Assembly: GCA_028554645.1 (NCBI GenBank)
Contig: JAQOOI010000070.1
Span: 62,001 to 126,000, forward strand
DNA from: Omphalotus guepiniiformis
Lineage: Eukaryota; Basidiomycota; Agaricomycetes; Agaricales; Omphalotaceae
Length of the DNA stretch: 64,000 nucleotides
Direction: 5' to 3'
Part shown: positions 4,098 to 56,032 of the stretch, one piece after another
Position numbering within the stretch: position 1 is the first letter of the stretch
Layout: every line of letters begins with the position of its first letter
Notes under the pieces: model-generated
Database searches by the model: none
What the model was told of the DNA's origin: nothing
The model's input: the letters and a program-made list of their open reading frames with translations, nothing else
Made by a program: the position numbers and the translations under genes

Positions 4098-4127
4098 GAC
4101 TTAGGAGTAGGAGTAGGAGTAAGAGTA
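4098..4127. repeat. GGAGTA microsatellite
   Basis: A short run of ggagta units (taggagtaggagtaggag, then agta) lies in the spacer between copies 2 and 3. The rest of 3873-4370 is homologous spacer sequence repeated between the tandem units and holds no further gene. Confidence 0.6.
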
Positions 4128-4370
4128 TGGTAACCGGCTTGGGACATGTATATTGTATTGCGCGCCTACATGCACATTGAGCGCTAATAAAATATACTTT
4201 GACAAACTTCACACGGCCTGTTTCTCTTTCATCTATGTATGCCGCTCGACTTGTTAGAAGAATGATGACAGCAAACTGAAAAGCACACTTCTAAGCAAAG
4301 GTATTGTTATCGGCGAGCTCTGTGTGAGATGAAACTGAAAGGGATACAAAGATAGCAAAGGATCCTGTCG

Positions 4371-38605: not shown

Positions 38606-39181
38606 TTACAATGAAACTAAGTCGTCATCAGGCTCTTGGAACTTTAGGGCTCGTTGCAAGTATCGCTTGCGCACCTCCCGACATCCCTCCCAGAACACTT
38701 CCAATATTTCCTCTACATATCTGTAAAAAATCTTGAGCTCCCGGAACAATGTACGTGCCCATTTAAGATCAGGACCATAACCGAAACGTCGCTGAATTTG
38801 ATCTGCGGCTTTGTAGGTTTTATTGACGTATCTTCGGGCCCTAGCAACGACTTCAATAAGTGCATGTCTCTCATCATCCTCACGATATGTTACGACAAGG
38901 CAAAGCTCAGCAAATTTCCGTGCATCGCCTTTGACAAACGTAGACCACCTCGTGTACAGCTCTTCTAGATACACACGAGGATCATAGTTCGGTTCGCCCC
39001 TAAAATTTTATCAGTCTCCATCTGATTACCACGAAGGTTGAACATTGAGAACTCACGCCCGCAATCTTTTGCCGGAAGTCGGAGCTGGAGCCAATGACAG
39101 GACCGGAGCAGGAGGATCAACATGGGCCGGAGAAGGAGGATCAGCATGGGCCGGAGCACGAGATGTTGGGGTTGGGGCCGG
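38606..39181 (-). pseudogene. 3' half of a gene split by the retroelement
   Basis: Minus-strand exons 39057-39181 (continuing across the insertion) and 38606-38999 encode a Pro/Ala-rich linker (PTPTSRAPAHADPPSPAH) and a C-terminal helical domain. That domain includes YLEELYTRWSTFVKGDARKF and RELKIFYRYVEEILEVFWEG. The 5' half lies at 55716-56032. With one ccgg duplicate removed, the three exons total 783 nt, an exact open frame of 260 codons plus stop. The original protein type is unrecognised but resembles basic hypothetical proteins common in agaricomycetes. Confidence 0.8.
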
Positions 39182-41027
39182 TGTTGCGTCAAAAAGCCTT
39201 TCAGTACTGAAATCTATCAGATTGAAGTAAATATGGAATGTTCAAGCATTGGAAACTGAACATAAAGGATTAGAGTCACCCCAGACTGCTAGTTAAGACA
39301 TGAAACATACTTGTACTCACAATACCTAAGTGTAGTGTTTGCTACAGTACTGAATCTGGTACTAAGCAACTGTGACCAATGGGTTATACAAAGAGATACT
39401 AGTTATGCCTCTCCAGATGTGTTGGAATTCCAATGTTCCATACCAGATTGAGTTGGTCAGACCCACCCTCTAATAACTAGAGACTCTACCAAGTATTGTT
39501 GACTGTAATCCAAGGGGTTGATGGATTTTCACTTCAATTGAACAACTATCTAAGTCCTTTGGACTGATCAAAAGTTCCAGCTGGTCTTGCTAACTAAGTT
39601 GGCACTATAAGATTGAATGCTGAGAATATGGGCAATCTTGAAGGTTGTATTACCAGAGAAATATTGTACATTGAGTACTATGTGGATATAATGTCACTGA
39701 GATGAAATGCCAATCTGTGTAATAATGGAAGTAGATTCAAAAGTTACATCTGCATAAATGAGTTAGATACTCAATACTCATGCTGGAAGGAGTTAGATAC
39801 TGAAAATGAGTATCTCTCTGGATCTGAGTATCTCTCTGAAATTCAGTAACCCTCTGAACTTGATGAAAGACAAAGGCGCTCTAATGGGAGGTCTTAGACG
39901 AAACTATGGGATAGAATACTGTCCTAGGAGAAGCTGAGAGCTATCCTAAACAAGAAATATAACCTGAGTACAAATCTGACCAAAAAAAGAGATGTATAGG
40001 GGTAAAACTTGAAATAAACAGTTACTGTACCTTACTGTGGCTGATAGAAACGATGAAGCATGGTCTAGATAAGCTCTAGAGCTTCTACACAACTCCTAAT
40101 GCTGCCCTAGTAGAGGAGAATGTGCCAATTTTGGAGAAACTTATAGGGGACCAGATTTGCAATGCACTAAGGAGAATGTCACCTGTCAGGATACTGGTTG
40201 CTATTTACAGGATCTGGACCTTTATTTAGATACCCTGGGTACGCCCTAACACACCTAGAACGCGGACAAAGCGATATATTTCTGTTTTTATACCAATCTA
40301 TACCCAAAGTTCCTACATTTTGACTATCTAACTGGAAAATTACCTAGAAAACTACCTAAAAAGAATCCAATCTCTGCTCAATTGATACTTACTTACTTTT
40401 GACTCATTTACTGTTCAGATTACTCTTTTAATTTCGAGATATATGTTTGATTTTATGATTTAGTATATATAGCTTACAGAGTATCTATTTAGATTTTCTT
40501 AAGCAAGTACTGCCCAAAGCTACAAGCCAAAGCAGGAAAACCTTCTTAGACGAAATATAGCCTGGCTCTTTAGAGTTCAGTTCGAGAAATATCCAGTTGT
40601 GAAAACTTCTGTAAAGTCCCTTGTGGCAGATAAATTGAAAGAGATACTGAATCTTTGCTGAAACTGCTGTTCTGTCTGTGCTGAATCTGCCTGCTGAAAC
40701 TGTCTGTGCTGCATCTGAAACTGTTCTCTGCATTGTCTGACCATTGGATCGAGTTTAAACATCGAGATTGATTGTCCTGAATCCCTCCTGAACCCTGAAA
40801 ACCACCCTTACCTTCTGTCTGAATCTTGTGTTTTGAGATACCCTCTGCCATTTTTCACCCAGATTGAGATAAAGACATCTGTAACCCTGCAGATTCAAAG
40901 TTCAATTGTTGCGTCTAACTGTGCGGAATCTCTGACAACGCCAGTCACACCTCACCCTACATCATTTTGATTTGAGTTGGATTGTGCTCATTTGAGTATC
41001 TCTCTCGTTCATTTCATAGTCACTACA
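39182..41027 (+). repeat. Left LTR
   Basis: 1846 bp, starting tgttgcgtcaaaaagcc and ending cactaca. No long ORF of its own. It contains several gagttagatact / gagtatctctctg words near 39755-39850. TATA-like atatatag near 40465-40472 is a possible U3 promoter element. Confidence 0.95.
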
Positions 41028-41029
41028 TC

Positions 41030-41047
41030 TGGAGCCCACCGCGAGGG
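41030..41047 (+). promoter_or_regulatory. Primer-binding site
   Basis: tggagcccaccgcgaggg begins two bases after the left LTR; TGG is the complement of a tRNA CCA end. The tRNA species was not determined. Confidence 0.65.
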
Positions 41048-41536
41048 GTGGCTTTAGACTTGATAATTGAACTATCTGTGTATTTACACGTGTCTGGAAA
41101 TAAATCTGGACTTTTTCTGTGTTGAACTTTGCCCTGTTCCTCACTTAGCAACAATTTCCTTGAAGTTGTTGAACCATCTATAAGTTTTATAACTTAGAGT
41201 TTGCTTGTCAAAATTAGCAGCTCACAGAGAAACACACGTCCTAGAAAGACTAAGAATTCTGAGAGAGCTGGAACAGAAGAATTGTCACTGAACCAGTCAT
41301 CCAGAAGGAAAAGTTCCAAAGGAAAAGAGAAAGAAGTCATACCTGAACCAGATTCAAGTTCCCTTTCGTCTCTTTCGTCCCTAAGTACGATTTCTGAACG
41401 GAATACACCTCCAGATTTATCTGAACTCTCAGCTAGATACAAGAAAAATAAGAGGAACTTTGTTAACAGTCCTCAATATTTTGCCTTGACACATAAAAGA
41501 ATCCCTGTTAAAATAATAAGGAACCCGAGAAACAAT

Positions 41537-43111
41537 ATGTCTACTCATGACAATGCTACTGGGAATGAAGCTCCCCAACAACAAGGACCTACCCAAGGAC
41601 CTGTTGAGATGGAAGAGATCTTCATTTTTGGAAATGCAACAGGAATGCAGATTCCTGTTCCTGCAGCTAAAGAGTTGCAAAATGAGAAACTACCTAAAGT
41701 CTCTAAGCAGGCACCCATCTTCGATAAGAAACATCCATCTGAATTGGTTGCATGGTTGGCAGAGCTGGAAGGCATCTTTGTGTCAACCGGAACTAAAACA
41801 GATGCGGCTAAAGTAATGTTGGCTCTCAGATACATGGAGTTCCATACCCGTGAAGAGTTTCAACGGCTTCAAGCTGTTAAAGATTTGGATTGGGATGCTT
41901 TCAAAGAGGCATTAATGAAAAATTTCCCTGAATCTGCAGATAGAGGACTGGGATCTAGACAAAGATTGTATGCTATCATTGATGCATATAAGCTCATAGT
42001 GCTTGGTGCTATTCAGAAACTGATGGCATTTAAAAGAGAGTATGAGATTGAGTATGAGAAACTATCTTCTGGTACTACACCTGTAGTATCAAACTCAGAA
42101 GCTGTAGCTGGTTTCTTGAGTGCACTAGATGAACCCTTCAGAAGAAAACTTCTGGACCGCCTAGAAAACAAAGTGATCAATGGCCACTTACAAGTTCAGA
42201 GAGAGGATGACCCTTTTACTCTGAAAGATGTAATGTCTGAGGCTGAAAAACTCTGTTCTGTAAAAAGAGCAGGGGGATACAACTTTGGTTTATTCTTGAA
42301 TGGTCCAAATCTGGCAGAAGGATACTCTAGGATACTCCCAACAACTGAGCAGAGTGCTACAAGGAAGTTATATGATCCTTACCAAGTAGCATCTACTGTG
42401 AAGTCAGAACCAGATCAGTGGGCAATGAAATTGTCTGCAACAGTGGATAGTCACCAGAACCAGTTTAACCAGATTAGACAAGCCCAGGAAACGAATCTGG
42501 CAGCTCTTGCAAAGCTATCTGAGACAGTTGCTAACTTGGCAAAAATGACCCAAGCAACTTCTAGCTCAGTTAGGATGAACATGAATGCTCCAAATTCCCA
42601 ATCTGGACCTGGAATGAACTCTAATGGACACAATAGTGTACAAAGATCGTCCCAGATGTCATCTGTGAATAATAATACTCATGCTGACTCCAATTGCTAT
42701 ATGTGTGATGAGCCTGGACATAGATCTATGGACTGTCCACATCAACTTAGATTTATCAGGTTGGGGTGGATGATCAAGAATAGTGCTGGTAAATGGGCAT
42801 TGAAAGATGGAGTATATTGGCCAAGAGCTGATCCGTCTGATACTCGGTCTAAGAAAGAGAAGATTGAGGAAATTGCCAAAAGACATGGATGGGAACAACC
42901 TTCCTCTCATGTTGACCAGAACTTGTATGCTTTTGAAGATGAGGATTCGGCTATAGCAGGTCCCTCTCAAAGTAGTTCATTAGATGCTATCAACAGCCTT
43001 GTGGCTCAATTCAGTCAGGTTTGCAATACTTTGCAGAATCTGGCACCAGCAGCTAAATCTGAAACTAAGCAGATTTTGAAACGAGAAAACAACTCTGAGT
43101 CGAAAAACTAG
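41537..43111 (+). CDS. gag: Gag with CCHC zinc knuckle
   Basis: 524 aa from the first in-frame ATG; the frame stays open back to 41201, so a longer product is possible. The capsid-like helical region spans residues about 60-280 (FDKKHPSELVAWLAELEG, MLALRYMEFHTREEFQRL). The zinc knuckle CYMCDEPGHRSMDC (C-x2-C-x4-H-x4-C) at about 387-400 binds nucleic acid. It ends in TAG at 43109. The next ORF starts 8 bases later in the -1 frame. It packages the element RNA into virus-like particles. Confidence 0.88.
   Translation: MSTHDNATGNEAPQQQGPTQGPVEMEEIFIFGNATGMQIPVPAAKELQNEKLPKVSKQAPIFDKKHPSELVAWLAELEGIFVSTGTKTDAAKVMLALRYMEFHTREEFQRLQAVKDLDWDAFKEALMKNFPESADRGLGSRQRLYAIIDAYKLIVLGAIQKLMAFKREYEIEYEKLSSGTTPVVSNSEAVAGFLSALDEPFRRKLLDRLENKVINGHLQVQREDDPFTLKDVMSEAEKLCSVKRAGGYNFGLFLNGPNLAEGYSRILPTTEQSATRKLYDPYQVASTVKSEPDQWAMKLSATVDSHQNQFNQIRQAQETNLAALAKLSETVANLAKMTQATSSSVRMNMNAPNSQSGPGMNSNGHNSVQRSSQMSSVNNNTHADSNCYMCDEPGHRSMDCPHQLRFIRLGWMIKNSAGKWALKDGVYWPRADPSDTRSKKEKIEEIAKRHGWEQPSSHVDQNLYAFEDEDSAIAGPSQSSSLDAINSLVAQFSQVCNTLQNLAPAAKSETKQILKRENNSESKN
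43102..43108 (+). promoter_or_regulatory. Candidate -1 frameshift site at the end of gag
   Basis: G AAA AAC directly precedes the gag TAG. A -1 slip there would read CTA GAG TTT CCA into the protease ORF without a stop. The P-site re-pairing would be imperfect. Reinitiation at the ATG 8 bases after the stop is the alternative. Confidence 0.35.
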
Positions 43112-43119
43112 AGTTTCCA

Positions 43120-44517
43120 ATGAAGGAGATTGGTGAAGAAGCTGTATATACTCAGAATCCTTCTCACAAAACAGGTCAATCTCCTGAGGAAAATAAACTT
43201 GTAAAGAAAAAGAGAGTTGAAGTGTTACTACCTACACTAAGACCATCTGAAAGGGAGAAATACAGACCCCCTGCTATGAGAAAAGAGCCCGTTCGTTTTG
43301 AACTACCCGTTGATTCTGACACTGAGGAGATTGAATCTCCCTCTGAAAATAACAACGATGTTGCACGGAGAGTATCTAACCGTCCGTTTGATCATGTAAA
43401 GGCAATAGATAGGCCACCTATACCAAAGGGAATGCCTGTAGGGAGCCAGAATAAGTCAAATGAGACTGAAGGAGCTCAATCTGGAACTAAAGATGGAATG
43501 AGTAATGATACAAGGAATGCTATTGTATACACAAAGCCTCCGCGTAAATCTGAGCCCGATTTCAAGCTTAGAAACTCACTATTCAAACCGGGTCTAGCAG
43601 AAGAAATTGCAGACAAAATCTTTAGATCTGAGATAGATATAAGTAGTGGGGACCTCATTGCTATATCTCTGGCACTTCAGAAGATTATGCAGAGAAAATT
43701 GAAGAACAACAGGGTGTATAAGCGTCCTGTAAAGGCTTTTGTTCATGAAGTAAGGGATGAAGATGATCCTGATGGTATTCTACCAGAAGAAGATGTCAAT
43801 CTGGTACAGGCAAATTATATGGTCTTTATTGAAGATATGGCCTATGAAAGGGAAGATGTGTTTATTGTCCTAGATGAAGACACAGATGACCTTAAGAAAG
43901 GCTCAGTGGTACACAAGGATGTTGTGGACCAGTATCAGAAAGATGTACCTCCAGATGAGAGGAACAAGATCATTATAGTAGCCAGCCAGACTGACAGTCT
44001 AAAGGCAATCTACCCAAAGATTAATCACTCTGATCAACAAGTTGAGACAGTAGTTGATAGTGGTTCTCAAATCGTGTCCATGGATACAAGAGTAGCTATT
44101 GGACTTGGTTTAAGATGGGACCCAGAGACTGTGATCCATATGCAAAGTGCAAATGGTCAATTACAGGCTACTAGGGGACTAGCAAGAAATGTACCATTTA
44201 CCTTTGGAGAAATAACTATCTATATGCAGATTCACATAATAGATAAAGTGCCTTATGATGTTCTTTTGGGAAGACCATTTGATGTGTTAACAAGCAGTGT
44301 AGTCAGAAACTTTGAAACTGGAGAACAAGAGATCACCATTACAGATCCAAACAGTGGAATGAAGTGTACAATGGGAACATATGACAGAGGTAGAGGAATT
44401 AAGGTTAAACCTATTCCTGGTGAACCAAAGCTTGTCCCAGAAACACAGAAATCTGCGAGTGTCCCTGTGAAAAATGAGGGAGACTCTCAAAATTTTCATC
44501 GGACCTCAATGAACTGA
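43120..44517 (+). CDS. Aspartic protease ORF
   Basis: 465 aa. The retropepsin core is at about residues 305-400: VETVVDSGSQIVSMDTRVA (active-site DSG), a flap region, then IDKVPYDVLLGRPF (the hydrophobic-hydrophobic-G motif). The 300 residues before it are charged and probably a linker from gag. It lies in the -1 frame relative to gag and the +1 frame relative to pol. The protease processes the polyprotein. Confidence 0.85.
   Translation: MKEIGEEAVYTQNPSHKTGQSPEENKLVKKKRVEVLLPTLRPSEREKYRPPAMRKEPVRFELPVDSDTEEIESPSENNNDVARRVSNRPFDHVKAIDRPPIPKGMPVGSQNKSNETEGAQSGTKDGMSNDTRNAIVYTKPPRKSEPDFKLRNSLFKPGLAEEIADKIFRSEIDISSGDLIAISLALQKIMQRKLKNNRVYKRPVKAFVHEVRDEDDPDGILPEEDVNLVQANYMVFIEDMAYEREDVFIVLDEDTDDLKKGSVVHKDVVDQYQKDVPPDERNKIIIVASQTDSLKAIYPKINHSDQQVETVVDSGSQIVSMDTRVAIGLGLRWDPETVIHMQSANGQLQATRGLARNVPFTFGEITIYMQIHIIDKVPYDVLLGRPFDVLTSSVVRNFETGEQEITITDPNSGMKCTMGTYDRGRGIKVKPIPGEPKLVPETQKSASVPVKNEGDSQNFHRTSMN
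44490..44496 (+). promoter_or_regulatory. Canonical -1 frameshift heptamer before pol
   Basis: A AAT TTT in the protease frame fits X XXY YYZ, 18 bases before the protease TGA at 44515. After a -1 slip the frame TCA TCG GAC CTC AAT continues open into the pol ORF. No downstream pseudoknot was evaluated. Confidence 0.6.
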
Positions 44518-44552
44518 TAAGAGATCAGGGAGAGGTAGCTGTTTGTATTGAA

Positions 44553-47500
44553 ATGGATGAAGATGGCAATGCCACAATTGCTGGATATAAGCTGCCAGAC
44601 AATGAATTGTTTTCAGAACCTGAAAAGGCTGAGGCATTTGTGTTTGCAGCTGAATCCATCATAAGAGAAAACGATATAGCGGCTGCAGATTCGGTTAGAT
44701 CGTATTTAAATCGGTCTGTAGACTCAGAAAAGAAACAAGTGTTCTGTACCTGGCGAGAAAATTTAAATTTGAATTCAAAAGAGCACTTAGATACTCAGAA
44801 TTCAGACTTAGATACTTGCACGGTACTTAATCACACTTCGGAACCCGCATCTGGAACTGAAAAGAGGATGAATAAGGGTAAAAAGGTCAAAAGGGAACCT
44901 AAACCTGTCCAATCTTCAAGACCCAGATGGAGTAGAGATAAGAATGGCAACAAAATGGCCAGATTGGTGACTGTTTTGGCTTCTAGAAAGTACAAACCAG
45001 TTGCTATTAAGGTCAAACCTGTTAAAGCTACCTTACCTGCGGAGTTCCGGATTGAAAGAAAAATAATTGGAGATCCGTTAAAAGATATGCCTGAGTTACC
45101 TACTCATCCTCCAGATTTCACTCCTGGTGAGAGGTACTCTCAAGAAAGAAAAGAAATTGTAGACAAGAATCATAATGAAGGTTTCTTATGGCCTGAAGAA
45201 ATGAAACTTGTACACCATCTTATGAAAGTCCAAGAAAAAGCATTTGCATGGGAAGCATCTGAAGGAGGAACCTTTAATACAGAGTTCTTTCCTCCAGTAA
45301 AGTTTCCAGTGTTACCACACACTCCTTGGGTAGAAAGGAATATTCCTATACCTCCAGGGATCTATGATCAAGTGTGTAAAATGATTAAGGACAAAATAGA
45401 TGCTGGTGTATATGAGCCGTCCAGTTCATCCTATAGATCCAGATGGTTCTGTGTCTTAAAGAAAGATGGGAAAAGCTTAAGATTGGTCCATAGTTTAGAA
45501 CCACTCAATAAAGTGACTATTCAACATTCAGGAATTCCTCCTGCAACTGCAGATATAGCTAGAAGCTTCTCTGGAAGAGCATGTTTGGGTTTACTGGATA
45601 TCTTTGTTGGGTATGATGAGAGGCTGGTTGATGAAAGTTCAAGAGATCTTACCACCTTCCAAACACCTTTTGGCCCACATAGATTAGTGAAGTTACCTAT
45701 GGGTTGGACAAACTCTGTCCCTATCTATCATGATGATGTTACATATATCTTCAGAGATGAAATTCCACATGTAACTAAACCTTACATTGATGATGTACCA
45801 GTAAAAGGGCCTGTCAGCAGATATGAAACTGCAGATGGAGGTTATGAAACTATCCCTGAAAATTCTGGCATCAGAAGATTTGTGTGGGAGCATCTGCAGA
45901 ATATGAACAGAATTGTGCAAAGAATGAAGCATGCTGGTGGTACCTTTGCAGGTACTAAAGCTTTTATCTGTGTAGCTGAAGGAGATGTTGTTGGACATCA
46001 TGTCAGTTATGAAGGAGAAAAGCCAGTTGAAAGGTTAGCTGAAGTTGTTCTGACTTGTGATGCATCAAAATGGTCTGAGAAGAAAGATATCCGGTCATTT
46101 TTGGGCACTGCTGGTCAGATGAGGATGTTCATAAAGGATTATGCCAAGAAAGCAAAACCTTTGACAATCTTAACTGGAGATGTGCCTTTTCAAATGGGTC
46201 CTGCAGAACTGGAAGCTGTAGAAATGATTAAAGATGGGATTAGGAATGCTCCAGCACTCCGTCCTATTGACTATGATTTAAGTACTGGAATCACCCTTTC
46301 AGTAGATACTTCCTGGATGGCAGTAGGTTTCCAACTATATCAGAGAGACCCTGCAGATTCAAAGAAAAAGTTCTACAATTGGATGGGTTCTATTACCTTA
46401 AATGAGAGAGAAGCAAGGTTTTCTCAACCCAAGAGAGAACTATATGGCTTGATGTTGGCCTTACAACAAACATACTACCAGACATATGGATGTAGGGATC
46501 TTACTGTGGAAACAGATGCAAGCTATATTAAAGGAATGCTTGACAAACCCAGTAGTGGTCCCAATGCAACTATAAACAGATGGATTGAAGAAATAAGGAA
46601 GTTCCACTTCACCTTGGTACACATCAAGGGCACTGAACATAAGGGACCAGATGGACTATCTAGACCACCTAGAGGAACCATACCAACTGAAAGAGCGGCA
46701 TCTAGAGATCCGGATTCATTTGTTGATGAAGATGATGGTCTGCCGGTGAAATTCAGAATGGGAGATGGTGAATCTGAGGTACCCTTTGATTTTGAAGCCT
46801 TTAAAGATGAAATAGATACTCGAGGTGGTTACTTGCAGGAAGTTGCAAAGTCAATAGACGACTTTGAAGACGATTTGCAAGAAGCTCTTGAAGAAGAACG
46901 TCACTTGAATTCCATTAGAGAGCTGTTAGCAATTCAACATCCAGTATCTAACTCGATGTTGCAGTTTGCACAGACCTTGGTTATACCTGAAGGAGGTACT
47001 GAATGGAAACATGAACACCCGTATAGAGAGGATCACAGATCTGCATCTACAAAGGAACTGGATGAACAACTAGACCTAATCAAAGATTGGTACCTGCAGG
47101 GCAATCAGCCTCTAGCTCACCTAGGTGAGACTGCTATGAAAAAGTTCATTTCCAGGGCTGTAAAGTTCTTTGTAGACAGAGATGGGAGACTCTATAGAAG
47201 GAATGATGATACAGGAGGCCAGCATAGACTGGTTGTGCCTAAAGAGAAAAGGATGTACATGATGCATGCTGCTCATGACCATCTGGGACATAAAGGAATG
47301 TTTGCAACAAAAGCTCTCATAGAGAAGCGTTTTTGGTGGCCAGATTTGAATGGAGATGTCAATTGGTTTGTCAAATCCTGCCAAATCTGCCAGAACCGAA
47401 AATTAGAATTGTTGAAGATTCCTCCCACTCTTACACACACTCCCTCCCTGTTTCAGAAGATTCATGTGGATGTATTTAAAGTATCACCTCCAAGTAATGG

Positions 47501-48596
47501 TTGCAAGGATGTTGTACATGGCAGATGTGCACTCTCATCCTGGTCTGAAGGAAGAGCCTTAAGATCTGACAATGCTAGATCATTGGGGGAATGGTTCTTT
47601 GATGATATTATATGCAGATGGGGATGTCTGGATGAAGTAGTAACTGATAATGCACCCCAGATGCGAGCTATGCTTAAATGGCTAGAAGATAAATATGGAA
47701 TTAAAGGAATTACTATATCTCCTTACAATTCCCAAGCAAATGGCAAGATTGAGAGAGCCCACTTTGACATTAGAACTGCCTTGGCAAAAGCTACAGGTGG
47801 AGATCTAAAGAGATGGTGGTGGTTTCTCAAACATGTCTTCTGGGCAGATAGAATTACAGCTAGAAAAGGACTTGGATGTTCACCATACTTCCTTGTTACT
47901 GGAGCTGAACCTATCCTACCCTTGGATATTGTTGAATCTACATGGTTAGTAAAACTTCCAGATAGAATCTTGACATATGAGGAACTTATTGGCTACAGAG
48001 CTCAAGCTCTAGCTAAGCATAGAACCCATGTGCAGGAGATGATATCTAGAATTGATACAACCAAGAAAGAGACTCTTAGACAATATGAAGAAGAATACAG
48101 AAATGTTATCAGAGACTTTGATTTCAAACCTGGTACACTTATACAAGTCAGAAATACACAAGTTGAGAAGAACTTGGACAGAAAAATGTATCCTAGATAC
48201 CTGGGACCCATGATTGTAATAAGGAGAACCAAAGGGGGATCCTACATTGTGGCCCAGATGGATGGCACAGTACTCAGAGAAAAGGTTGCTGCCTTCAGAG
48301 TACTACCCCATGTAGCTAGATATGAACCAATTCAACTGCCTGAGAACATTCATGAACTTATAGACTTGACTAGTGAACAACTAGAAGAGATGGTCAATGA
48401 TAACAATGAGCTAGACCCTGAACTTGAGAGAGATTACATCTTTGACAGTATTCCTCAACTGAGAATTCCTGCTGAAGATGAAGATCTTGATGAGTCCAGT
48501 GATGAAGAACTACAATCTGCAAACGATGCAGATGAAGAAGAACCAGATTGGGACGCTCCAGTCCAGACTAGGTCCCAATCTTCACAAAATAAATGA
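44553..48596 (+). CDS. pol: Pol: reverse transcriptase, RNase H, integrase
   Basis: 1347 aa from the first ATG; the frame is open upstream to the frameshift site. The RT spans about residues 250-480 with LLDIFVGYDERL and the active-site YIDD (about 411). RNase H follows with LSVDTSWMAVGFQLY and ETDASYIKGML (about 583-660). The integrase zinc module is HAAHDHLGHKG...CQICQ (about 902-945), and the DDE core has HVDVF (971), VTDNAP (1030) and KIERAH (1066). The C-terminal GPY-like module is MYPRYLGPMIVIRRTKGGSY, followed by an acidic tail. Domain order is Ty3/gypsy. No chromodomain is recognised. All catalytic residues are present. Confidence 0.95.
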   Translation: MDEDGNATIAGYKLPDNELFSEPEKAEAFVFAAESIIRENDIAAADSVRSYLNRSVDSEKKQVFCTWRENLNLNSKEHLDTQNSDLDTCTVLNHTSEPASGTEKRMNKGKKVKREPKPVQSSRPRWSRDKNGNKMARLVTVLASRKYKPVAIKVKPVKATLPAEFRIERKIIGDPLKDMPELPTHPPDFTPGERYSQERKEIVDKNHNEGFLWPEEMKLVHHLMKVQEKAFAWEASEGGTFNTEFFPPVKFPVLPHTPWVERNIPIPPGIYDQVCKMIKDKIDAGVYEPSSSSYRSRWFCVLKKDGKSLRLVHSLEPLNKVTIQHSGIPPATADIARSFSGRACLGLLDIFVGYDERLVDESSRDLTTFQTPFGPHRLVKLPMGWTNSVPIYHDDVTYIFRDEIPHVTKPYIDDVPVKGPVSRYETADGGYETIPENSGIRRFVWEHLQNMNRIVQRMKHAGGTFAGTKAFICVAEGDVVGHHVSYEGEKPVERLAEVVLTCDASKWSEKKDIRSFLGTAGQMRMFIKDYAKKAKPLTILTGDVPFQMGPAELEAVEMIKDGIRNAPALRPIDYDLSTGITLSVDTSWMAVGFQLYQRDPADSKKKFYNWMGSITLNEREARFSQPKRELYGLMLALQQTYYQTYGCRDLTVETDASYIKGMLDKPSSGPNATINRWIEEIRKFHFTLVHIKGTEHKGPDGLSRPPRGTIPTERAASRDPDSFVDEDDGLPVKFRMGDGESEVPFDFEAFKDEIDTRGGYLQEVAKSIDDFEDDLQEALEEERHLNSIRELLAIQHPVSNSMLQFAQTLVIPEGGTEWKHEHPYREDHRSASTKELDEQLDLIKDWYLQGNQPLAHLGETAMKKFISRAVKFFVDRDGRLYRRNDDTGGQHRLVVPKEKRMYMMHAAHDHLGHKGMFATKALIEKRFWWPDLNGDVNWFVKSCQICQNRKLELLKIPPTLTHTPSLFQKIHVDVFKVSPPSNGCKDVVHGRCALSSWSEGRALRSDNARSLGEWFFDDIICRWGCLDEVVTDNAPQMRAMLKWLEDKYGIKGITISPYNSQANGKIERAHFDIRTALAKATGGDLKRWWWFLKHVFWADRITARKGLGCSPYFLVTGAEPILPLDIVESTWLVKLPDRILTYEELIGYRAQALAKHRTHVQEMISRIDTTKKETLRQYEEEYRNVIRDFDFKPGTLIQVRNTQVEKNLDRKMYPRYLGPMIVIRRTKGGSYIVAQMDGTVLREKVAAFRVLPHVARYEPIQLPENIHELIDLTSEQLEEMVNDNNELDPELERDYIFDSIPQLRIPAEDEDLDESSDEELQSANDADEEEPDWDAPVQTRSQSSQNK

Positions 48597-48798
48597 TAAA
48601 CACACTATATTTGAACAAAGTACGAGATAGACACTGAAAAAGTGACTACCTAGTTGCAGATGAAAGTAAAAAGTGGGTAACAGTAGTATGCACTACTAAG
48701 ATAAACATAAAGGGTGTCTGAAGATGTCCTATACGATGTACCAATACCGTGTAAACTGCCCATAAATGATACTGAGATGTCCAGATGTAACATTAAAG

Positions 48799-50200
48799 TC
48801 AGAAAATGTCTGCAGATGGGAAGGCATGGAAAGGAGCTGGATCATCAGCAGTACCTGGGCCAGACTCCAAGGGACTCTGGTTGGCCCTGTAAGCCTTCTC
48901 CTTCTGTCTTCGGAGCAATTCCAGACGGGAAAACTCCTTGTAGGCAAATCTGTACTGAGAATGATGATACTGAATGGCATGTTGATGAACACTGAGTTCT
49001 GTCTTCAAGAAGTTGGAAATTGATTGAAGAACCTCAGGAGAGAAGTGGTCCAAGTCCATGAAAGGGAACAGAGCAGTGATACGAGTCACAATCTCTTCTC
49101 CACTCTCCCGGAGTTTGCGCTCATCTGCAGGATAATTGAGTTAGATACTCGAAAAAGCCGCAGATTGGGTGACTACTCACGGTCTGTCTCCTCTCTAAGG
49201 TTGACGATTGGGTTCTCAATCCGAGGCTTCTTCATGACAATCACCTTGTGGGGCTCAGGAATAGGTTCATTCTACATGAACATTTATAGTCAGTACATAA
49301 AACTGCATGAATATCTCCAGATGGAACTAAAAACTTACATCTTTGGGTCCAACTGAGGTAGCCTGAAAAGTTACCAAGGTACATCAGTCAAGAGAAACGA
49401 ATGAACAGTTCTGAACATAAATCTGCTTACCCTTGGAGAAGTAATTACTACTTTTTCCTTGGAAGACTTATGAACTGTGGTAGTAGTGGGAGAACCTTTG
49501 GTTTTGTCCTTGCTAGAGTCCTTGTTATCCTTATTGGGAGCGTGGATCGACGCAGAAAGCCCAAGGGAAGGTCCATCTGCCATCTGAGAAAAGAAAGACC
49601 ATGTTGGGATTTGTGTTAGATACTCAGTAACCAAGGAGTTAGATACTTACAGTAACGTCTCCGTCACCAGTAATGACCTCAATCTCTTCATCGTCATCAT
49701 CGTCATCCTCAATAAGTTCGGGAGTTTTAGCTGGCTACACACCGATAGGCAGTTAGATACTCGAAATGAGAGGGATGGTCAATAAAAACGTACTTTGCGC
49801 TTCTTAGACCCACTGAGAGTCTCTCTGCGCTTTGCCAAGTCGTCCCGGAAAGCTTTAATGGCGGAGAAAGTGTCAGGTTCACCTACAGATGGAAACTTTT
49901 TGACTGCATCTGCGACCAGATTGACACCTTTGTCGAACAAAGTGAACGCTTCCTCGGACTTAGCAACTGCATATGCAGGCAGAGACTTCTTCTGTAATAA
50001 GAAATCAAGTTAGATACTGGACCTGGAATCAAAGATTGAACATTTACAAGATGACTAGCAAGGGCTGTAATAAGCATCCCAAGCAGTTCAGTATCCGCAT
50101 CTTTGGCCTCCATGGCTCCAGTAGCTCGAGAAAGATATCGCTGCGTTGTGGCAACCCACTCAGGACGCTCAGGCCAAGTCTTGGGACCTTTAGGGGCCAT
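48799..50200 (-). CDS. Antisense accessory gene A of the retroelement
   Basis: Seven minus-strand exons: 50048-50200, 49794-49991, 49651-49734, 49431-49583, 49339-49362, 49181-49271, 48799-49124. All have GT-AG introns and matching phases, total 342 aa. The protein starts MAPKGPKTWPERPEWVATTQ. It has helical segments (ATGAMEAKDADTELLGMLIT), a basic RRETLSGSKKRK, an acidic ED-rich patch, a Ser/Thr/Lys linker and a C-terminal coiled region (FPFMDLDHFSPEVLQSISNF, YAYKEFSRLELLRRQKEKAY-like). It runs head-on toward pol, 202 bp between stops. Exon 5 is only 24 nt. No family is recognised; the role is unknown. It lies inside the LTR pair and is therefore carried by the element. Confidence 0.75.
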
Positions 50201-51040
50201 AACTGTAAAATATAGAGATAAAGAAATGATAAAAGTGGAAGGGATGTAGAACCAAGTAATAGATGGTGCTGAGTCGTTCTGAATCTGCGCTGCACCTTTT
50301 ATATCTGGTCTACCCCGTCTAAATCTGCACGTTGGTCATTACTCCTATGCTGTTCAAACAGGCACCATGAGGCCTAGCCAGCGTAGCAGATTGATCAACG
50401 GGGACGTTGAAGTTACTTTTACTTGGGGGGAGAGAGCACACAAAGTTGACAAGGCCAAAATTTTGAATTTTTGAAATTTCAAATATCTCAAATCTGGAGA
50501 TCTAGACAGCTTTGACCGCAGAGGACTTAGCCGAATAGCATTGCCGAGTAACCGAGAGCTCTCAACCTTGACAGAAAGGACTTATTAAATTCAATGTATC
50601 CTCAAAAAGAAACGATACTTATTGAAAATTGTGGGCTTAAGTCATTTAAAGAATTGTTTCCCTCTAGAATCGAGTTAGATACTCAACTTGAAGGAGACTC
50701 TCAATATGATTTCTTATGTTTCACACCAGATTCATGCCAAGAAAAATGAAATATGTATTTTTGAGCATAGAAGCTCAGGACTATAATAAGAGATACTTCG
50801 ACCTATACTACTATAAAGTAAGTACAGGGAGTATCTACAGAAAAAGCGATGTATAAAATTTTTATATATTTGGGCAACCTGGTGTGTTGAACACCAAGGT
50901 CACCCGCGACGAAATGCGAACGGATACGGGAGGTCCCAGCCAAGGGAAGAGAACGACAGATCTGTGAGATTGGGACTGAGAGATGGAGAAAGTAAAGGGA
51001 AAAAGGGGTACGAACTATGTGCGCACCCGAGCCTTGAAAG
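50201..51040. promoter_or_regulatory. Spacer between antisense genes, with promoter of gene A
   Basis: On the minus strand a TATA-like atataaaa (50304-50297) lies about 97 bp upstream of the gene A start. The rest is AT-rich and noncoding and contains one more gagttagatactc word at 50683. The 3' end of gene B borders it at 51041. Confidence 0.5.
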
Positions 51041-53565
51041 TCACTCTGAGAGGGGATCGTCCCTCCCAGCTAGTGGACTGCTTTCTGGCACTAAGACCCT
51101 GCCCGTCGTCTCCTCCTCCAGCTCGTCTTCCTTGTCCTCATCCTCTTCGACCGTGACTTGCGAAGCACCGACCGCCTGAGGCGATTCGTCGATGTCAGCT
51201 GTAGCAACGGGAGTGGAAGGAACACGGGATGGACCAGCTTGCTGCTCGACCTCTGGATCCACCACGACGAAACGACCAGATTTGTTCCTAGCGATATAGC
51301 TTGCCCGAGACACCAGGTTGATGTCCCATCCAAGCGCGGTAGCCAGTAGTTTGAGCTGTTCGTCCGAATAGTCAAATGTCGGGTCGCCAGTCTGAACCTG
51401 ATGTAAAACGAGACGAGGATCGCGACACGAAGCCTTGATATGATCTTGACACTGCAAGATCGTCCGGTGTACCCGTTCCATCGCTCGCATCTGCGCGGAG
51501 ACGCTGTTCTGCATGTCCTCGTAGGTGTCGATGAGAATCTGCAACTGCTCAGCTTCCTGAGAGACAACTAAGAAACGAAGAACCTTTAATAAAAGATGTC
51601 TAAGGAAATGAAAGGAATACTTACCTGTACTGCCGCTACGAGCCAATGTGTATGAAAGGCATCGCAACTGATCGCTGCCTTCCAAACCGTACGACCAGCT
51701 ACAGGTATGGTTGTCCTTTGCGCAGGTAGCGCAGCGCCATTCGAAAGTCTTGCTGTTGAACTGAGGACGACACTCCCTACCTTCTGTGTGTGTACCGCCG
51801 ACGCAGGCAGCACAAATGGAGTCGCCGAAGAACTAAAAGAGTGACGAAAAGAAAATTTAGCGGGTGTTAATCTCGAGTCAGAGAGAGGCGTACCCGATCG
51901 AATGTGCGATTAACGGAAACGAGCTGTTGTAAAGTGACAGGACGGCCGTAAGGCCATCCAAAGACAACACGACCTGTAAAAGAACTGTTAAACAAACGCT
52001 AGAAAAATGAAAGTGAAGGATACTTACCAGGTACCTGCTCAAAGTCCTCCTTGGCACGATTCTGCGGCGTACGGCCATCTGAGCGCTAAGGAAGACATTG
52101 TCAGTAATAAGAGCTGAAATAAAAGAAATGATGAGACTTACGTGGAGATTTGGGGCCTCATGACGGGTGCCCGGGGCTAGAGAAACAGAAGATGTTGCGA
52201 AATCGGCGCGAGAAGCCCACAAAGGAGCCTCAAAGTCGACGTTGAGATTGACTGGGGCCTTAGCACCCTCAGTCTTGACCAATTTCTCCTCTTCCTTCTT
52301 CTCCTCTTCCTCGTCGCTGGATGCAGGAACAGTAATTGAAGTCGCCTTGGAGCGAGTCTTTCGAGACGCTGGTTCATCGGCAGGCTCTTCCACACGCATC
52401 TTCCGAATCTTCGGTTTTGGCTTGACCACCTGTTTACCCTTGCCCTGCGTAAGAAAACATGAGAAAAGAATAAATAAATCTATAAGGAAACGTACCTTTG
52501 AAGCTGCAGCTGCAGGCTTCTTACCCTCAGAAACGCGAGACTTCTTGACCGGAGGCTCAGAGTTCTCGGACTCGAAGTCAGTATCATCGTCGTCGTCGTC
52601 GGTCAGCTCAGTAGATTCGGCCGTGGCTTCAACGTCGGAGATCTTGCGTTTCATCTAAAAATGATAAAATAAGAAGGACCTCTTCAAACAAAAAGAAAAG
52701 ACATACCGAACGACCCGGTAAGGGCGTTACACTAGTCTTGGCCTTTGGCTTTGGCTGAGGCTTTGGTTTTGAAATCGGTGCCGAAACCTTCGAAGATTCA
52801 GCGCGAGCAACCTTGGCGGACGAAGCAAGTGTGGCGAGAGGCGGGAGTAAGATCTCATCGTCGTCGTTGTCTTCCTCGAGCTGCGGAGTTTGCTTAAGCT
52901 TAGGAAATGGAGGTAGTGGTTCCCACAAATTGCGAAGCTGTAAAGAGTTAGCAAAAGAAATGAAACCAGTCTGAGAGATACTTACTGTATACTTGAGGCA
53001 GAAAGAATCAAGTTTAGCGCGGTTTAGCCCCCAGGGCGGCACAATAAATGAGGTCGGTTTGGCCTGATGAAGCCATAAAGCGAGATTGCATACAGAAAGA
53101 AAAGAACCGGTAAAATAGTCGGGGAGATGTGTATGTGCTCGCTGGCAGCGATTGAAAGTCAAAGCAACGCGAGTCTGTCAAGATGAGGTTAGCTATAACG
53201 AAGATGAAAAGAAATGATGCCTACCAAGGCGAGATTCAAATCGTCGAAAGCGGATGTAATGGTCCTCAACCTAAGACCCTTTCCAAACTCCTTGAACGAT
53301 TGGTCCCGTAGACGTCGGTCCAAGTCGCCTAGCCTTGAAACGATGGCGGAAAGAGCCTTGTAATCCTCTTCGTTCATGTCTGAGAGCTGTGAGAGGGAAG
53401 AGAAAAGAAAGAGGCCGTCAATTGAGAGCGGTTCTCGAATATATATGTGACACACTGTGAAAAGCAGCGCGTGAGAGAAAGGAATTAAAAAGGACTTACC
53501 GGTACCTCGGAAGGCTCCCTACTGAGAGTGATAGAGGAAGCCAATTGCCTTGAAAAGTCATCCAT
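51041..53565 (-). CDS. Antisense accessory gene B of the retroelement, Cys-cluster protein
   Basis: Ten minus-strand exons: 53500-53565, 53225-53386, 52986-53174, 52707-52937, 52496-52654, 52142-52444, 52028-52085, 51894-51973, 51625-51832, 51041-51567. They total 1983 nt, 660 aa, with all introns GT-AG and in phase. The N-terminal 160 residues are helical (TRVALTFNRCQRAHTHLPDY). The middle 250 residues are highly charged, with Lys/Arg and poly-Asp/Glu tracts (nuclear-type). A cysteine cluster C-x2-C-x10-C-x12-C-x2-C-x6-C at about 423-462 (CAACVGG...CATCAKDNHTCSW) could bind zinc and DNA. A coiled-coil follows (AEQLQILIDTYEDMQNSVSA), then an acidic tail. A chromatin- or DNA-binding role is inferred only from composition and cysteines. 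Confidence 0.75.
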
Positions 53566-53616
53566 CGGGGGACGAAGTGAGATGTGAAGAGAAAACGAGA
53601 ATCACTGTCTGTTTAA

Positions 53617-53630
53617 GTCGAAACTTCGAC
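53617..53630. promoter_or_regulatory. Palindrome upstream of antisense gene B
   Basis: gtcgaa-ac-ttcgac, a 6 bp dyad 52 bp upstream of the gene B ATG. A possible regulatory site; evidence is position only. Confidence 0.35.
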
Positions 53631-53860
53631 AGAAGCAGATTGCGGGTTTCGCCGAAGTCTGACATTGCCGTCACATGCCGATGTAAATGTATTGACTGGC
53701 GATCAATCGAGAAAAGTTTTGCCTAAAGGCAGTCCGTGAAACGTGATATTGTGATATTGAACAGTACGAAATGCGCTTCTATGACCAATCTGCTAGTAAT
53801 AATTGTATCTAACTCGATTTTGGCCCATCTGGTACGATCGAGGACAATCTTATTTTACTT

Positions 53861-53869
53861 TGGGGGAGA
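53861..53869 (+). promoter_or_regulatory. Polypurine tract
   Basis: tgggggaga lies directly before the right LTR, the expected position of the plus-strand primer. Confidence 0.7.
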
Positions 53870-55715
53870 TGTTGCGTCAAAAAGCCTTTCAGTACTGAAA
53901 TCTATCAGATTGAAGTAAATATGGAATGTTCAAGCATTGGAAACTGAACATAAAGGATTAGAGTCACCCCAGACTGCTAGTTAAGACATGAAACATACTT
54001 GTACTCACAATACCTAAGTGTAGTGTTTGCTACAGTACTGAATCTGGTACTAAGCAACTGTGACCAATGGGTTATACAAAGAGATACTAGTTATGCCTCT
54101 CCAGATGTGTTGGAATTCCAATGTTCCATACCAGATTGAGTTGGTCAGACCCACCCTCTAATAACTAGAGACTCTACCAAGTATTGTTGACTGTAATCCA
54201 AGGGGTTGATGGATTTTCACTTCAATTGAACAACTATCTAAGTCCTTTGGACTGATCAAAAGTTCCAGCTGGTCTTGCTAACTAAGTTGGCACTATAAGA
54301 TTGAATGCTGAGAATATGGGCAATCTTGAAGGTTGTATTACCAGAGAAATATTGTACATTGAGTACTATGTGGATATAATGTCACTGAGATGAAATGCCA
54401 ATCTGTGTAATAATGGAAGTAGATTCAAAAGTTACATCTGCATAAATGAGTTAGATACTCAATACTCATGCTGGAAGGAGTTAGATACTGAAAATGAGTA
54501 TCTCTCTGGATCTGAGTATCTCTCTGAAATTCAGTAACCCTCTGAACTTGATGAAAGACAAAGGCGCTCTAATGGGAGGTCTTAGACGAAACTATGGGAT
54601 AGAATACTGTCCTAGGAGAAGCTGAGAGCTATCCTAAACAAGAAATATAACCTGAGTACAAATCTGACCAAAAAAAGAGATGTATAGGGGTAAAACTTGA
54701 AATAAACAGTTACTGTACCTTACTGTGGCTGATAGAAACGATGAAGCATGGTCTAGATAAGCTCTAGAGCTTCTACACAACTCCTAATGCTGCCCTAGTA
54801 GAGGAGAATGTGCCAATTTTGGAGAAACTTATAGGGGACCAGATTTGCAATGCACTAAGGAGAATGTCACCTGTCAGGATACTGGTTGCTATTTACAGGA
54901 TCTGGACCTTTATTTAGATACCCTGGGTACGCCCTAACACACCTAGAACGCGGACAAAGCGATATATTTCTGTTTTTATACCAATCTATACCCAAAGTTC
55001 CTACATTTTGACTATCTAACTGGAAAATTACCTAGAAAACTACCTAAAAAGAATCCAATCTCTGCTCAATTGATACTTACTTACTTTTGACTCATTTACT
55101 GTTCAGATTACTCTTTTAATTTCGAGATATATGTTTGATTTTATGATTTAGTATATATAGCTTACAGAGTATCTATTTAGATTTTCTTAAGCAAGTACTG
55201 CCCAAAGCTACAAGCCAAAGCAGGAAAACCTTCTTAGACGAAATATAGCCTGGCTCTTTAGAGTTCAGTTCGAGAAATATCCAGTTGTGAAAACTTCTGT
55301 AAAGTCCCTTGTGGCAGATAAATTGAAAGAGATACTGAATCTTTGCTGAAACTGCTGTTCTGTCTGTGCTGAATCTGCCTGCTGAAACTGTCTGTGCTGC
55401 ATCTGAAACTGTTCCCTGCATTGTCTGACCATTGGATCGAGTTTAAACATCGAGATTGATTGTCCTGAATTCCTCCTGAACCCTGAAAACCACCCTTACC
55501 TTCTGTCTGAATCTTGTGTTTTGAGATACCCTCTGCCATTTTTCACCCAGATTGAGATAAAGACATCTGTAACCCTGCAGATTCAAAGTTCAATTGTTGC
55601 GTCTAACTGTGCGGAATCTCTGACAACGCCAGTCACACCTCACCCTACATCATTTTGATTTGAGTTGGATTGTGCTCATTTGAGTATCTCTCTCGTTCAT
55701 TTCATAGTCACTACA
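53870..55715 (+). repeat. Right LTR
   Basis: 1846 bp, same length as the left LTR. Differences seen by eye are at the position corresponding to 40725 (ttctctgc versus ttccctgc) and near 40785 (gaatccctcc versus gaattcctcc). Confidence 0.95.
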
Positions 55716-56032
55716 CCGGAGCAGGAGCAGGAGAGGCTGGAGACGGTGATATCTGCGATGGTATTTTTAGTTCTGGTAGTGAGGCCTGTGTTTTGGCTGC
55801 AAGTTTTTTTTCCTGTCGTTTCACCCGGCGACGTTCAGCTATTTCCACTTTGTGTCTGACCAAATGTAAGTAATTATTAATGTATCCACTAATAAATTGC
55901 GTACTTTTCATATGATTGTTGAGACTTGATGCGGTTGGCTTGAGCCTTTTCCTCTGCTGAGTTGTAAAGCCGAGGTCGGGGCATATGGATATACGGCTTG
56001 AACGCGACTGGCTGGCCAGGGCCTGGCCACAT
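55716..56032 (-). pseudogene. 5' half of the gene split by the retroelement
   Basis: Minus-strand exons 55905-56032 and 55716-55855 (continuing at 39181). The start MWPGPGQPVAFKPYIHMPRP is followed by a basic helix (AEEKAQANRIKSQQSYEKHK and EIAERRRVKRQEKKLAA), then the Pro/Ala linker cut by the insertion. The sequence beyond 55715 in this frame would run into LTR and stop within two codons. The downstream half is at 38606-39181. Confidence 0.8.

Follow-up and report, generated by a model that had tools for sequence, protein, structure and literature searches.

A gypsy element and the genes on its opposite strand

The DNA analysed here, a stretch of 64,000 nucleotides (the 'window') from contig JAQOOI010000070.1 of Omphalotus guepiniiformis, contains a 16.5-kb Ty3/gypsy element at positions 39182–55715. 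Its LTRs, 1846 bp each, are 99.9% identical, with two mismatches and TG…CA ends; comparison places the 5' copy (TGTTGCG…CACTACA) at 39182–41027 and the 3' copy at 53870–55715, both on the plus strand. The tetranucleotide CCGG flanks the element on the left (39178–39181) and right (55716–55719), and is a putative target-site duplication, 4 bp long in this, the one copy examined, versus the usual 5 bp. Two nucleotides past the 5' LTR lies a putative primer binding site, TGGAGCCCACCGCGAGGGGT (41030–41049, plus strand), the complement of which, over 15 bases, has 175 matches genome-wide at one mismatch or fewer. Three plus-strand ORFs follow: gag (41201–43111; 636 aa; zinc knuckle, a weak Pfam match), protease (43120–44517; 465 aa; aspartyl protease, PF13650, E 6e-8) and pol (44553–48596, with its stop at 48596; 1347 aa; RNaseH and integrase zinc domain by Pfam). 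The Pfam domains run in the order protease, RNaseH, H2C2 integrase, and a polypurine tract, TTTGGGGGAGA (53859–53869, plus strand), directly precedes the 3' LTR. Pfam lists no reverse transcriptase (RT) domain in pol, and its matches to gag and to the integrase core (E 0.19) are weak; pol probably includes RT, judging from position, from relatives, and from a YIDD sequence that we take to be the RT motif. Among 7989 sequences scored, 1143 are relatives of pol at E≤1e-30, and the 120 listed include proteins of Lentinula edodes (64%) and Mycena chlorophos (54%); an IMG/VR search with pol found no relative.

Between pol and the right LTR lie two genes on the minus strand. A preliminary description of this DNA had given them 7 and 10 exons and 342 and 660 aa, and our own splicing reproduced both models exactly. 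Gene A (48799–50200) comprises exons 50200–50048, 49991–49794, 49734–49651, 49583–49431, 49362–49339, 49271–49181 and 49124–48799. Gene B (51041–53565) comprises exons 53565–53500, 53386–53225, 53174–52986, 52937–52707, 52654–52496, 52444–52142, 52085–52028, 51973–51894, 51832–51625 and 51567–51041. All 15 introns, 48–113 bp in length, are GT-AG as had been stated, and the nine intron phases of gene B are consistent. The stretch from the end of B to the start of A (50201–51040) is the presumed promoter of gene A; the region upstream of gene B (53566–53869; CpG observed/expected 1.37) ends in the polypurine tract.

By eye, both proteins contain basic, NLS-like, and acidic stretches. That of gene A has a KRK, an acidic run and a long C-terminal helix, the last exon being predicted as one long helix in single-sequence structure prediction (mean pLDDT 76). 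Exon 9 of gene B encodes a cluster of six cysteines, C-x2-C-x10-C-x12-C-x2-C-x6-C; a single-sequence AlphaFold model of this exon was of low confidence (pLDDT 59) and was set aside. A Cys-cluster protein had been foreseen, and is there, and a coiled coil had been assigned to the other gene; the more coiled-coil-like stretch, again by eye and with only non-significant matches to coiled-coil chains, is also in gene B. The fungal Zn2Cys6 binuclear cluster reads C-x2-C-x6-C-x5-12-C-x2-C-x6-8-C; the gene B spacing, C-x2-C-x8-10-C-x8-12-C-x2-C-x6-C, resembles it in layout only, and PF00172 is absent from the Pfam matches of gene B (Cys region to E≤10). No Pfam match of A or B reaches cut-off, the best for B being Ribosomal_L34e (E 0.0076, 34 residues). 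A four-family profile found nothing significant among PDB sequences, the best match being a coiled-coil protein at E 0.13, with the AlcR zinc-cluster chain at E 8.3. Neither Pfam nor the PDB sequence search, then, finds a known DNA-binding domain in A or B. In a set of 5.8 billion proteins, searched in a way that requires shared words and similar length, neither residues 380–600 of gene B (1297 candidates) nor the four-family alignment of gene A (7986 candidates scored) has a relative outside this genome.

Both genes are selected as proteins and common to diverged families

Twenty other copies, the most similar among 39 others found, were compared. The preliminary description turned on full-length copies keeping the block between pol and the LTR, and they do: gene A occupies the same place in 20 of 20, with an open frame in 18, and gene B is intact in 15, the remaining five (L011, L021, L023, L024 and L025) having it shortened, stopped or mostly deleted. 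pN/pS among copies is 0.057 for A and 0.160 for B, versus 0.09 for pol; the remaining frames of both genes give 1.5–5, apart from one mirror reverse frame (0.098 for A, 0.248 for B). Both genes are thus under purifying selection at the protein level, comparable to that on pol. They had been proposed as long-term passengers or partners of the element, and because selection on them is of this strength, 'partners' is the better word.

In F2, F3 and F4, diverged families represented by one copy each, the interval from pol to the 3' LTR also contains counterparts of both genes, least surely in the case of gene A in F4. The A/B pair is therefore a resident, common to diverged families. The gene B proteins of F1, the family of the present element, and F2 are about 60% identical; dN/dS between the two families is 0.14–0.15 for both genes; and 14 of the 15 introns are at the same place (9/9 in B, 5/6 in A). 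The exception is intron 6 of gene A, the modelled boundaries of which are displaced by 4 and 17 nt in F2 since in the copy examined the homologous donor is AT.

Could the block instead be captured host genes, or a second element nested in the first and hitch-hiking with it? Gene B has a host-like CpG content and a higher GC, and the synonymous divergence between F1 and F2 is 1.3–2.1 for A and B versus 0.42 for pol, which does imply that block and pol have partly separate histories. We consider capture or nesting very improbable all the same. The counterparts sit at the same place in diverged families; 50 of 61 gene A matches are downstream of an RT match on the opposite strand; no repeats of at least 30 bp bound the block, which ends at the element's own polypurine tract and LTR, so that no nested element with termini of its own was found; and the protein searches described above scored no relative. 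Both readings were rejected on these grounds.

Gene B is gone from one sublineage, F2', and the copy of it that was examined lacks the start of gene A as well. Five F2' loci carry the identical 3.1-kb loss, and the sublineage multiplied nonetheless, so a copy can do without the genes in cis. Multiplication after a shared loss suggests that the products act in trans, although dispensability of A and B is another possible reading. It would also suit self-repression by antisense products, through proteins or dsRNA, as a copy-number control or latency device of the HBZ kind. HTLV antisense proteins are reported to suppress transcription from the 5' LTR (PMC10186651), and antisense transcripts could form dsRNA (PMC7264820). 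Against repression by RNA alone, a coding-frame pN/pS of 0.06–0.16 shows that the protein itself is important, and a self-repressor would be harder to maintain by selection among competing copies. We regard self-repression as unlikely.

A dispersed motif and a CpG contrast

A motif, AGTATCTAAC(TC), is dispersed through the LTR, the gene A introns and the intergenic DNA. Scanning finds two exact AGTATCTAAC sites in the 5' LTR (39762–39801, minus strand) and a second pair in the 3' LTR; one within pol (46943–46952, plus), kept in F2; five exact sites in gene A introns (at 49140, 49615, 49638, 49752 and 50009, within 49140–50018, minus); one between A and B (50674–50683, minus); and one, with a single mismatch and kept in F2, upstream of gene B (53804). 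The fullest sites read GAGT-N5-ACTC. The element has 15 sites versus none in 47,466 bp of flanks, and they are denser in non-coding DNA (10 in 4323 bp) than in coding DNA (5 in 10,365 bp). Genome-wide, the 15-mer has 330 matches at one mismatch or fewer versus three for a reversed control, and 80 of the 83 exact matches listed have a gene A match no more than 12 kb away. Divergence among copies is lower in motif sites (15/1540) than in flanking bases (405/18525), the sites at 49140 and 50009 being more variable than their flanks. F2 retains 7 of the 10 non-coding sites versus a background of 16% (p 2e-4). The motif is thus conserved between F1 and F2; it is absent from F3 (0 in 8.6 kb), and a search of F4 gave nothing clear. 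In F3, another word, GGTCTAG, occurs six times in an independent stretch versus 0.6 expected, but it was chosen post hoc, host control segments are similarly significant, and it is not strictly F3's since F1 itself has six in 16.5 kb. An enrichment of AATCTG was also seen.

Might the motif be mainly a branch point, plus a composition effect of an AT-rich, methylation-decayed element, and have nothing to do with A and B? CTAAC, its core, would make a good fungal branch point, and this part of the motif may explain some of the intron sites, five of the 15 being in gene A introns; CpG decay, moreover, reshapes k-mers. But the conserved core is 10 bp long, sites in the LTR, in pol and between the genes fall on both strands, and there are none in the introns of gene B or in the 47 kb of flank. 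We find this account quite unlikely.

In every copy measured, the CpG observed/expected ratio is 0.15–0.17 in the pol part (20 sequences) versus 1.03–1.09 in gene B (16 sequences). The split between pol and block is present in F2 and F4, too. It is not universal, because F3 (0.46–1.37) is nowhere depleted to the degree of F1 pol, and the F4 LTR is not depleted. Two loci in the genome match C5 DNA methyltransferases.

A possible role, and known systems compared

With antisense genes under selection and a dispersed motif, the element may carry a system of its own for control or anti-silencing. Our preferred reading, to which we give a probability of roughly 45%, is that this lineage has long carried spliced, antisense accessory genes, the products of which act in trans on the element's own motif sites, much as VANC or HBZ do. 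A and B would be transcribed from the minus strand from promoters of their own, B's beside the 3' LTR, and probably also in copies with methylated gag-pol. Their introns would persist since they are in reverse orientation in the genomic RNA; such antisense placement illustrates how fifteen spliceosomal introns can outlast rounds of retrotransposition in a retroelement. The products would be nuclear, and B—with its Cys6 cluster, basic stretches and coiled-coil-like end—perhaps together with A, would bind the motif sites of the LTR, of the gene A introns and of the stretch between the genes. The predicted effect, on all copies in trans, is relief of silencing or control of transcription, by analogy with VANC on VANDAL or HBZ on HTLV-1. 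A more specific version is possible but doubtful: self-directed, sequence-specific anti-silencing, in which A and B shield the region that encodes them from methylation and keep it active, with gag-pol silenced, and their products recognise a family-spread motif (in LTR, introns and even coding DNA) that changes as the proteins diverge.

A role in the replication cycle—nuclear import of the pre-integration complex, chaperoning or integration targeting, with the motif a host-factor site—is improbable, in our judgement. The basic, NLS-like and acidic stretches are consistent with it, as are the reported nuclear location of the Grande antisense product (PMC7264820) and selection comparable to that on pol. 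Alone, however, it leaves unexplained both the CpG split and a motif that F3 lacks and that occurs in introns, LTR and intergenic DNA. What antisense accessory genes do in LTR retrotransposons is described as an open question (PMC7264820; PMC11963269). In the present element such genes have many introns, recur in diverged families and are under selection for their protein sequence; a candidate target and a CpG contrast accompany them, which makes the question directly testable: A and B against GAGTATCTAACTC, and methylation of gene B against that of gag-pol.

The closest parallels in placement are the aORFs of plant Ty3/gypsy elements (Grande gene23, RIRE2, Retand TRP28, PvRetro13): antisense coding regions that lie after pol and before the 3' LTR, are present in the majority of a family's copies and are in some cases common to several species, with a nuclear or DNA-binding role proposed and function unsettled (PMC7264820; PMC11963269). 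The present element is like Retand and the Grande aORF-3R in being antisense, between pol and 3' LTR, and in most copies; it differs in its two genes with six and nine introns, its dispersed motif and its CpG split. TRP28 (PF04195) is absent from the Pfam matches of A (E≤1) and B (E≤1; Cys region E≤10), and the antisense genes have no Pfam match to SMC. Zhao et al. (2011) are said to have described brtn of Boty-like retrotransposons. In Botrytis cinerea, brtn is an additional antisense gene of a fungal LTR element (PMC8365987; PMC7264820); likened here by description, it is one gene versus our two. The preliminary description knew of no fungal case of two spliced genes. A single fungal antisense gene was already known; for two spliced genes the statement holds across the open-licence papers we searched by titles and starts of abstracts. 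Antisense extra ORFs, then, are familiar from plants and from Boty; what is new is the spliced pair. The available text on rotifer LTR elements and giant transposons (PMC5408684, PMC6431247) describes no such pair.

In HTLV, another LTR element, the accessory genes HBZ and APH likewise lie antisense, are spliced, and are expressed from the 3' end (PMC10186651). They number one per virus, with the promoter in the 3' LTR, versus two genes here, and bZIP, the mark of HBZ, is absent from the Pfam matches of A and B. Agaricomycete DNA transposons carry TET/JBP genes thought to defeat methylation-based silencing (PMC12730594). Those are enzymes on DNA transposons, and the five proteins scanned have no Pfam match to them; the likeness is that of mushroom mobile elements with supposed anti-silencing genes.

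VANDALs are MULE DNA transposons with a VANA transposase; the present element is an LTR retrotransposon. VANC of Arabidopsis VANDALs is an element-encoded anti-silencing protein family that diverges with its element; its motif, YAGTATTAC, is dense in non-coding DNA, including introns, and rare in other TEs, and another VANC has another motif (PMC5735166; PMC10398659). The likeness is to a short motif dense in an element's non-coding DNA, common to F1 and F2, absent in F3 and not clear in F4. VANDAL motifs form tandem arrays whereas these are dispersed, and VANC binding and methylation loss were measured whereas here both are inferred. If the anti-silencing version is right, the element has a self-targeting system that is the convergent, fungal retroelement counterpart of plant VANC.

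An element with two resident antisense genes

The element, a Ty3/gypsy retrotransposon at 39182–55715 in a genome of 42.5 Mb and 80 contigs, is flanked by the 4-bp repeat CCGG. Its LTRs, 1846 bp each, differ at just two positions, and the insertion is therefore recent; the polypurine tract (PPT), TTTGGGGGAGA, lies immediately 5' of the 3' LTR. The plus strand carries gag (41201–43111), a protease ORF (43120–44517) and pol (44553–48596), and protease, RNaseH and H2C2 integrase domains are found in these ORFs by Pfam. No RT domain appears in the Pfam listing for the element's ORFs; we infer that of pol from its position and its relatives, which include, among the 120 listed, Lentinula edodes (64%) and Mycena chlorophos (54%). 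From these named relatives we take the host for a mushroom-forming basidiomycete. Each of the three ORFs (41201–48596) occupies a frame of its own, the stop of one lying 8 or 35 nt from the ATG of the next, and pol therefore needs frameshifting, reinitiation or another mechanism. A 15-base stretch of the primer binding site's complement, CCTCGCGGTGGGCTC, has 175 genome-wide matches with at most one mismatch (control, 3), perhaps the 5' ends of elements plus some tRNA genes.

Between pol and the 3' LTR, on the minus strand, lie gene A (50200–48799; 7 exons, 342 aa) and gene B (53565–51041; 10 exons, 660 aa). In silico splicing reproduced exactly the two gene models of the preliminary description, and the Cys-cluster protein it mentioned is the product of gene B, with six cysteines spaced C-x2-C-x10-C-x12-C-x2-C-x6-C. 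A conserved KRK, an acidic run and a long predicted helix at the C terminus mark the gene A protein. Neither protein reached the cut-off against Pfam or had a significant match among PDB sequences.

The gene A region is present in at least 40 genome copies, including the one in the window (DNA search). We read 20 of the 39 others (L009–L028), chosen as the most similar, a choice that biases intactness upward. Gene A follows pol, in unchanged place and orientation, in all 20, and the 3' LTR is present in all 11 stretches long enough to reach it. The gene A frame is open in 18 copies (exceptions, L023 and L024), and its splice sites are all canonical in 17, L028 being open but not fully canonical. 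Gene B is intact in 15: it is mostly deleted in L011 and L024, truncated in L023 and L025, and interrupted by a stop in L021.

Both genes are under selection at the protein level. Gene A has a pN/pS of 0.057 (19 sequences) and gene B one of 0.160 (16 sequences), compared with 0.090 for the C-terminal part of pol (20 sequences). Read in the other two forward frames the two genes give 1.9–4.4, and in reverse frames 1.5–5, save for one mirror frame (A, 0.098; B, 0.248), presumably an effect of its degenerate positions falling on the real ones. With CpG-context changes removed, nonsynonymous and synonymous differences from the window number 28:132 in A, 269:750 in B and 83:337 in pol. The genes had been described as passengers or partners of the element; the fixed place and low pN/pS make them a resident pair, and fit partners better than passengers.

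Within this family (F1), gene B has a synonymous divergence of 0.12, up to 0.2 in some segments, clearly more than pol and gene A (0.04), a sign that subfamilies have probably recombined at this gene. L014 and L015, 27.9 kb apart on contig C69, have nearly equal match values along their length and are perhaps one duplicated segment.

Diverged families in the same genome

Identity among at least 104 scored RT matches, together with A and B matches, separates F1 from the diverged families F2, F3 and F4 and from an F2 derivative, F2'. One copy was read of each: L029 (F2, contig C17), L032 (F2', C78), L030 (F3, C76) and L031 (F4, C20). RT identity to F1 is 96–98% in F2, about 82% in F3 and 75% in F4.

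In F2, A is about 80% and B about 67% identical to F1 in the best-matching exons, and the models, from a program that returned the window's genes exactly, are open at 336 and 658 aa. Intron places are common to F1 and F2 at nine of nine positions in B and five of six in A; at intron 6 of A, L029 has AT where the homologous F1 donor has GT, and the modelled intron is displaced by 4 and 17 nt, so that either the intron has shifted or the gene is damaged. Between F1 and F2, dN/dS for A, B and pol is 0.138, 0.151 and 0.12, and dS is 1.31 and 2.08 for A and B, both near saturation, versus 0.42 for pol. This inequality indicates that the histories of pol and of the antisense block are in part distinct, probably as a result of template-switch recombination.

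Counterparts in F3 and F4, where gene models are approximate, are more distant: 36% identity for A over its full length and 24–27% for the matched part of B in F3, and 27–31% for B in F4. For F4 a probable gene A comes from spliced alignment (25% identity) and from the layout; tblastn returned no match for A in that family. The two long cysteine gaps of B become x8 and x8–11 in F3 and F4, the aligner leaving the third cysteine unaligned. The F4 counterpart of B (L031, reverse complement) also contains RGRGRPKK, which we take to resemble an AT-hook and which is in keeping with a DNA-binding role. The preliminary description allowed that the genes might belong to a separate, nested element; their order, orientation and placement between pol and the conserved PPT in F2, F3 and F4 speak against this. 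Among the matches listed, 50 of 61 for gene A have an RT match 2.4–3.6 kb upstream on the opposite strand, and 46 of 61 for gene B have one within 12 kb, 42 of these at 4.8–6.1 kb; the 11 A and 15 B matches without an RT match so placed may be explained in part by the RT matches listed being a lower bound.

The F2' copy L032 (C78:607500–615000, 2260–4255) retains pol and a portion of A that lacks its start; the whole of B is gone too, and an AT-rich, CpG-free stretch stands in place of what was lost. Five loci among the matches listed have an F2-type A match without a B match nearby. In all five the end of A lies 1.93 kb from the next exact copy of the motif described below, versus 5.00 kb in three F2 loci, and so the five have a single loss in common. 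The RT scores of these loci equal those of B-keeping F2 copies, or nearly so in one case. Beside the F2' element is a second Ty3/gypsy-like pol (L032, 6055–7478, minus strand), the last ORF of which resembles, from its motif, a chromodomain.

A dispersed motif and a CpG split

The word AGTATCTA is the most over-represented 8-mer of F1 (16 versus 0.8 expected, p = 5e-16, second-order model) and of F2 (12 versus 0.4), and in F2' (13 versus 0.5) is second behind an overlapping word; the strongest 8-mer of five host control segments gets to 2e-9. A fuller site, GAGTATCTAACTC, contains the inverted repeat GAGT-N5-ACTC and occurs four times in F1, four in F2 and six in F2', versus once in 47 kb of flanks. 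The 15-mer AGTATCTAACTCGAT has 330 genome-wide matches with at most one mismatch, versus 3 for its reversal, and among the matches listed 80 of 83 exact ones have a gene A match no more than 12 kb away.

One LTR plus the internal region holds 15 sites (10-mer, at most one mismatch), denser in non-coding (10 in 4323 bp) than in coding DNA (5 in 10,365 bp; Fisher p = 0.003); the ten non-coding ones are three in the LTR, five in gene A introns, one intergenic and one upstream of B. The 10-mer has no site in 47,466 bp of flanks; its reversal has two in the element and one in the flanks. Seven of the ten non-coding sites are retained at the aligned place in F2, versus 16% of other non-coding 10-mers (p = 2e-4). 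Among the 20 copies, sites are less variable (15/1540) than their flanks (405/18525), although 49140 and 50009 vary more. F2 has extra sites, three of them in pol at places without an F1 site.

The motif is absent from the 8.6 kb of F3 and occurs once in F4. F3 has instead GGTCTAG, 12 times in 8.6 kb; this word was picked post hoc, and in an independent sample, 4.2 kb of a different F3 copy, it occurs six times, versus 0.6 expected and at most four in 300 shuffles. Host flank has four in 47 kb, F1 six in 16.5 kb, F2 two and F4 none, and the F1 and F2 counts argue against a clean family rule. The hexamer AATCTG occurs 49 times at 39182–53869 (16.5 expected; 3.34/kb versus 0.40/kb in flanks), spread over LTR, gag, pol and gene A and hardly in gene B; in F2 it reaches only 0.65/kb. 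It may be AATCCG decayed by methylation, or else a further motif specific to the family.

CpG observed/expected splits the element. In the window it is 0.25 in the LTR, 0.23 in gag, 0.18 in pol, 0.50 in gene A, 0.74 between A and B, 1.05 in gene B, 1.37 upstream of B and 0.95 in host flanks; gene B introns alone give 0.88, so the high value of B is not only a matter of codon use. F1 copies agree closely—0.15–0.17 in the C-terminal part of pol (20), 0.46–0.50 in A (19), 1.03–1.09 in B (16)—the gag and LTR values being those of the window copy. F2 is split as F1 is, LTR included; F4 has 0–0.4 in pol, about 0.9–1.5 in the antisense block and an LTR that is not depleted; F3 (0.46–1.37) is not split in this way, and F2' has low values everywhere. 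The simplest reading of these compositions is that gag-pol has been methylated long-term while gene B was kept unmethylated, expressed or protected. Two genome loci match C5 DNA methyltransferases. Selection against CpG in RNA fits less well: gene B, being part of the genomic RNA, should have been hit too.

A possible action in trans, and known systems

The resident pair, the selection on its proteins, the conservation of its introns, the motif conserved in F1 and F2 and absent from F3, and the CpG split are observed features of these elements. We suggest, at a probability of roughly 0.45, that the antisense proteins act in trans on the motif, relieving silencing or controlling transcription. 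A and B would be expressed from their own promoters and their products would act in the nucleus, where a protein of the element itself would bind the motif; the Cys cluster of B would suit a binder, and the inverted repeat a dimer. That F2' multiplied without B suggests action in trans. The strong, anti-silencing form of the model we consider unlikely, and have graded down slightly, since CpG is not depleted in the F4 LTR and F1 has GGTCTAG as well.

Plant elements too carry extra antisense coding regions between pol and the 3' LTR, of unknown function (PMC7264820; PMC11963269), and a fungal one is brtn of the element Boty (PMC7264820; PMC8365987). HBZ is a spliced antisense gene of a retrovirus (PMC10186651), and TET/JBP genes, which are believed to overcome methylation, travel on DNA transposons of mushrooms (PMC12730594). 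In function, VANC of the VANDAL elements of Arabidopsis comes closest, with a short motif dense in non-coding parts, introns included, and a different motif for another VANC (PMC5735166). The present element is distinguished by two multi-intron genes, several families in one genome, a candidate target motif and a CpG split.
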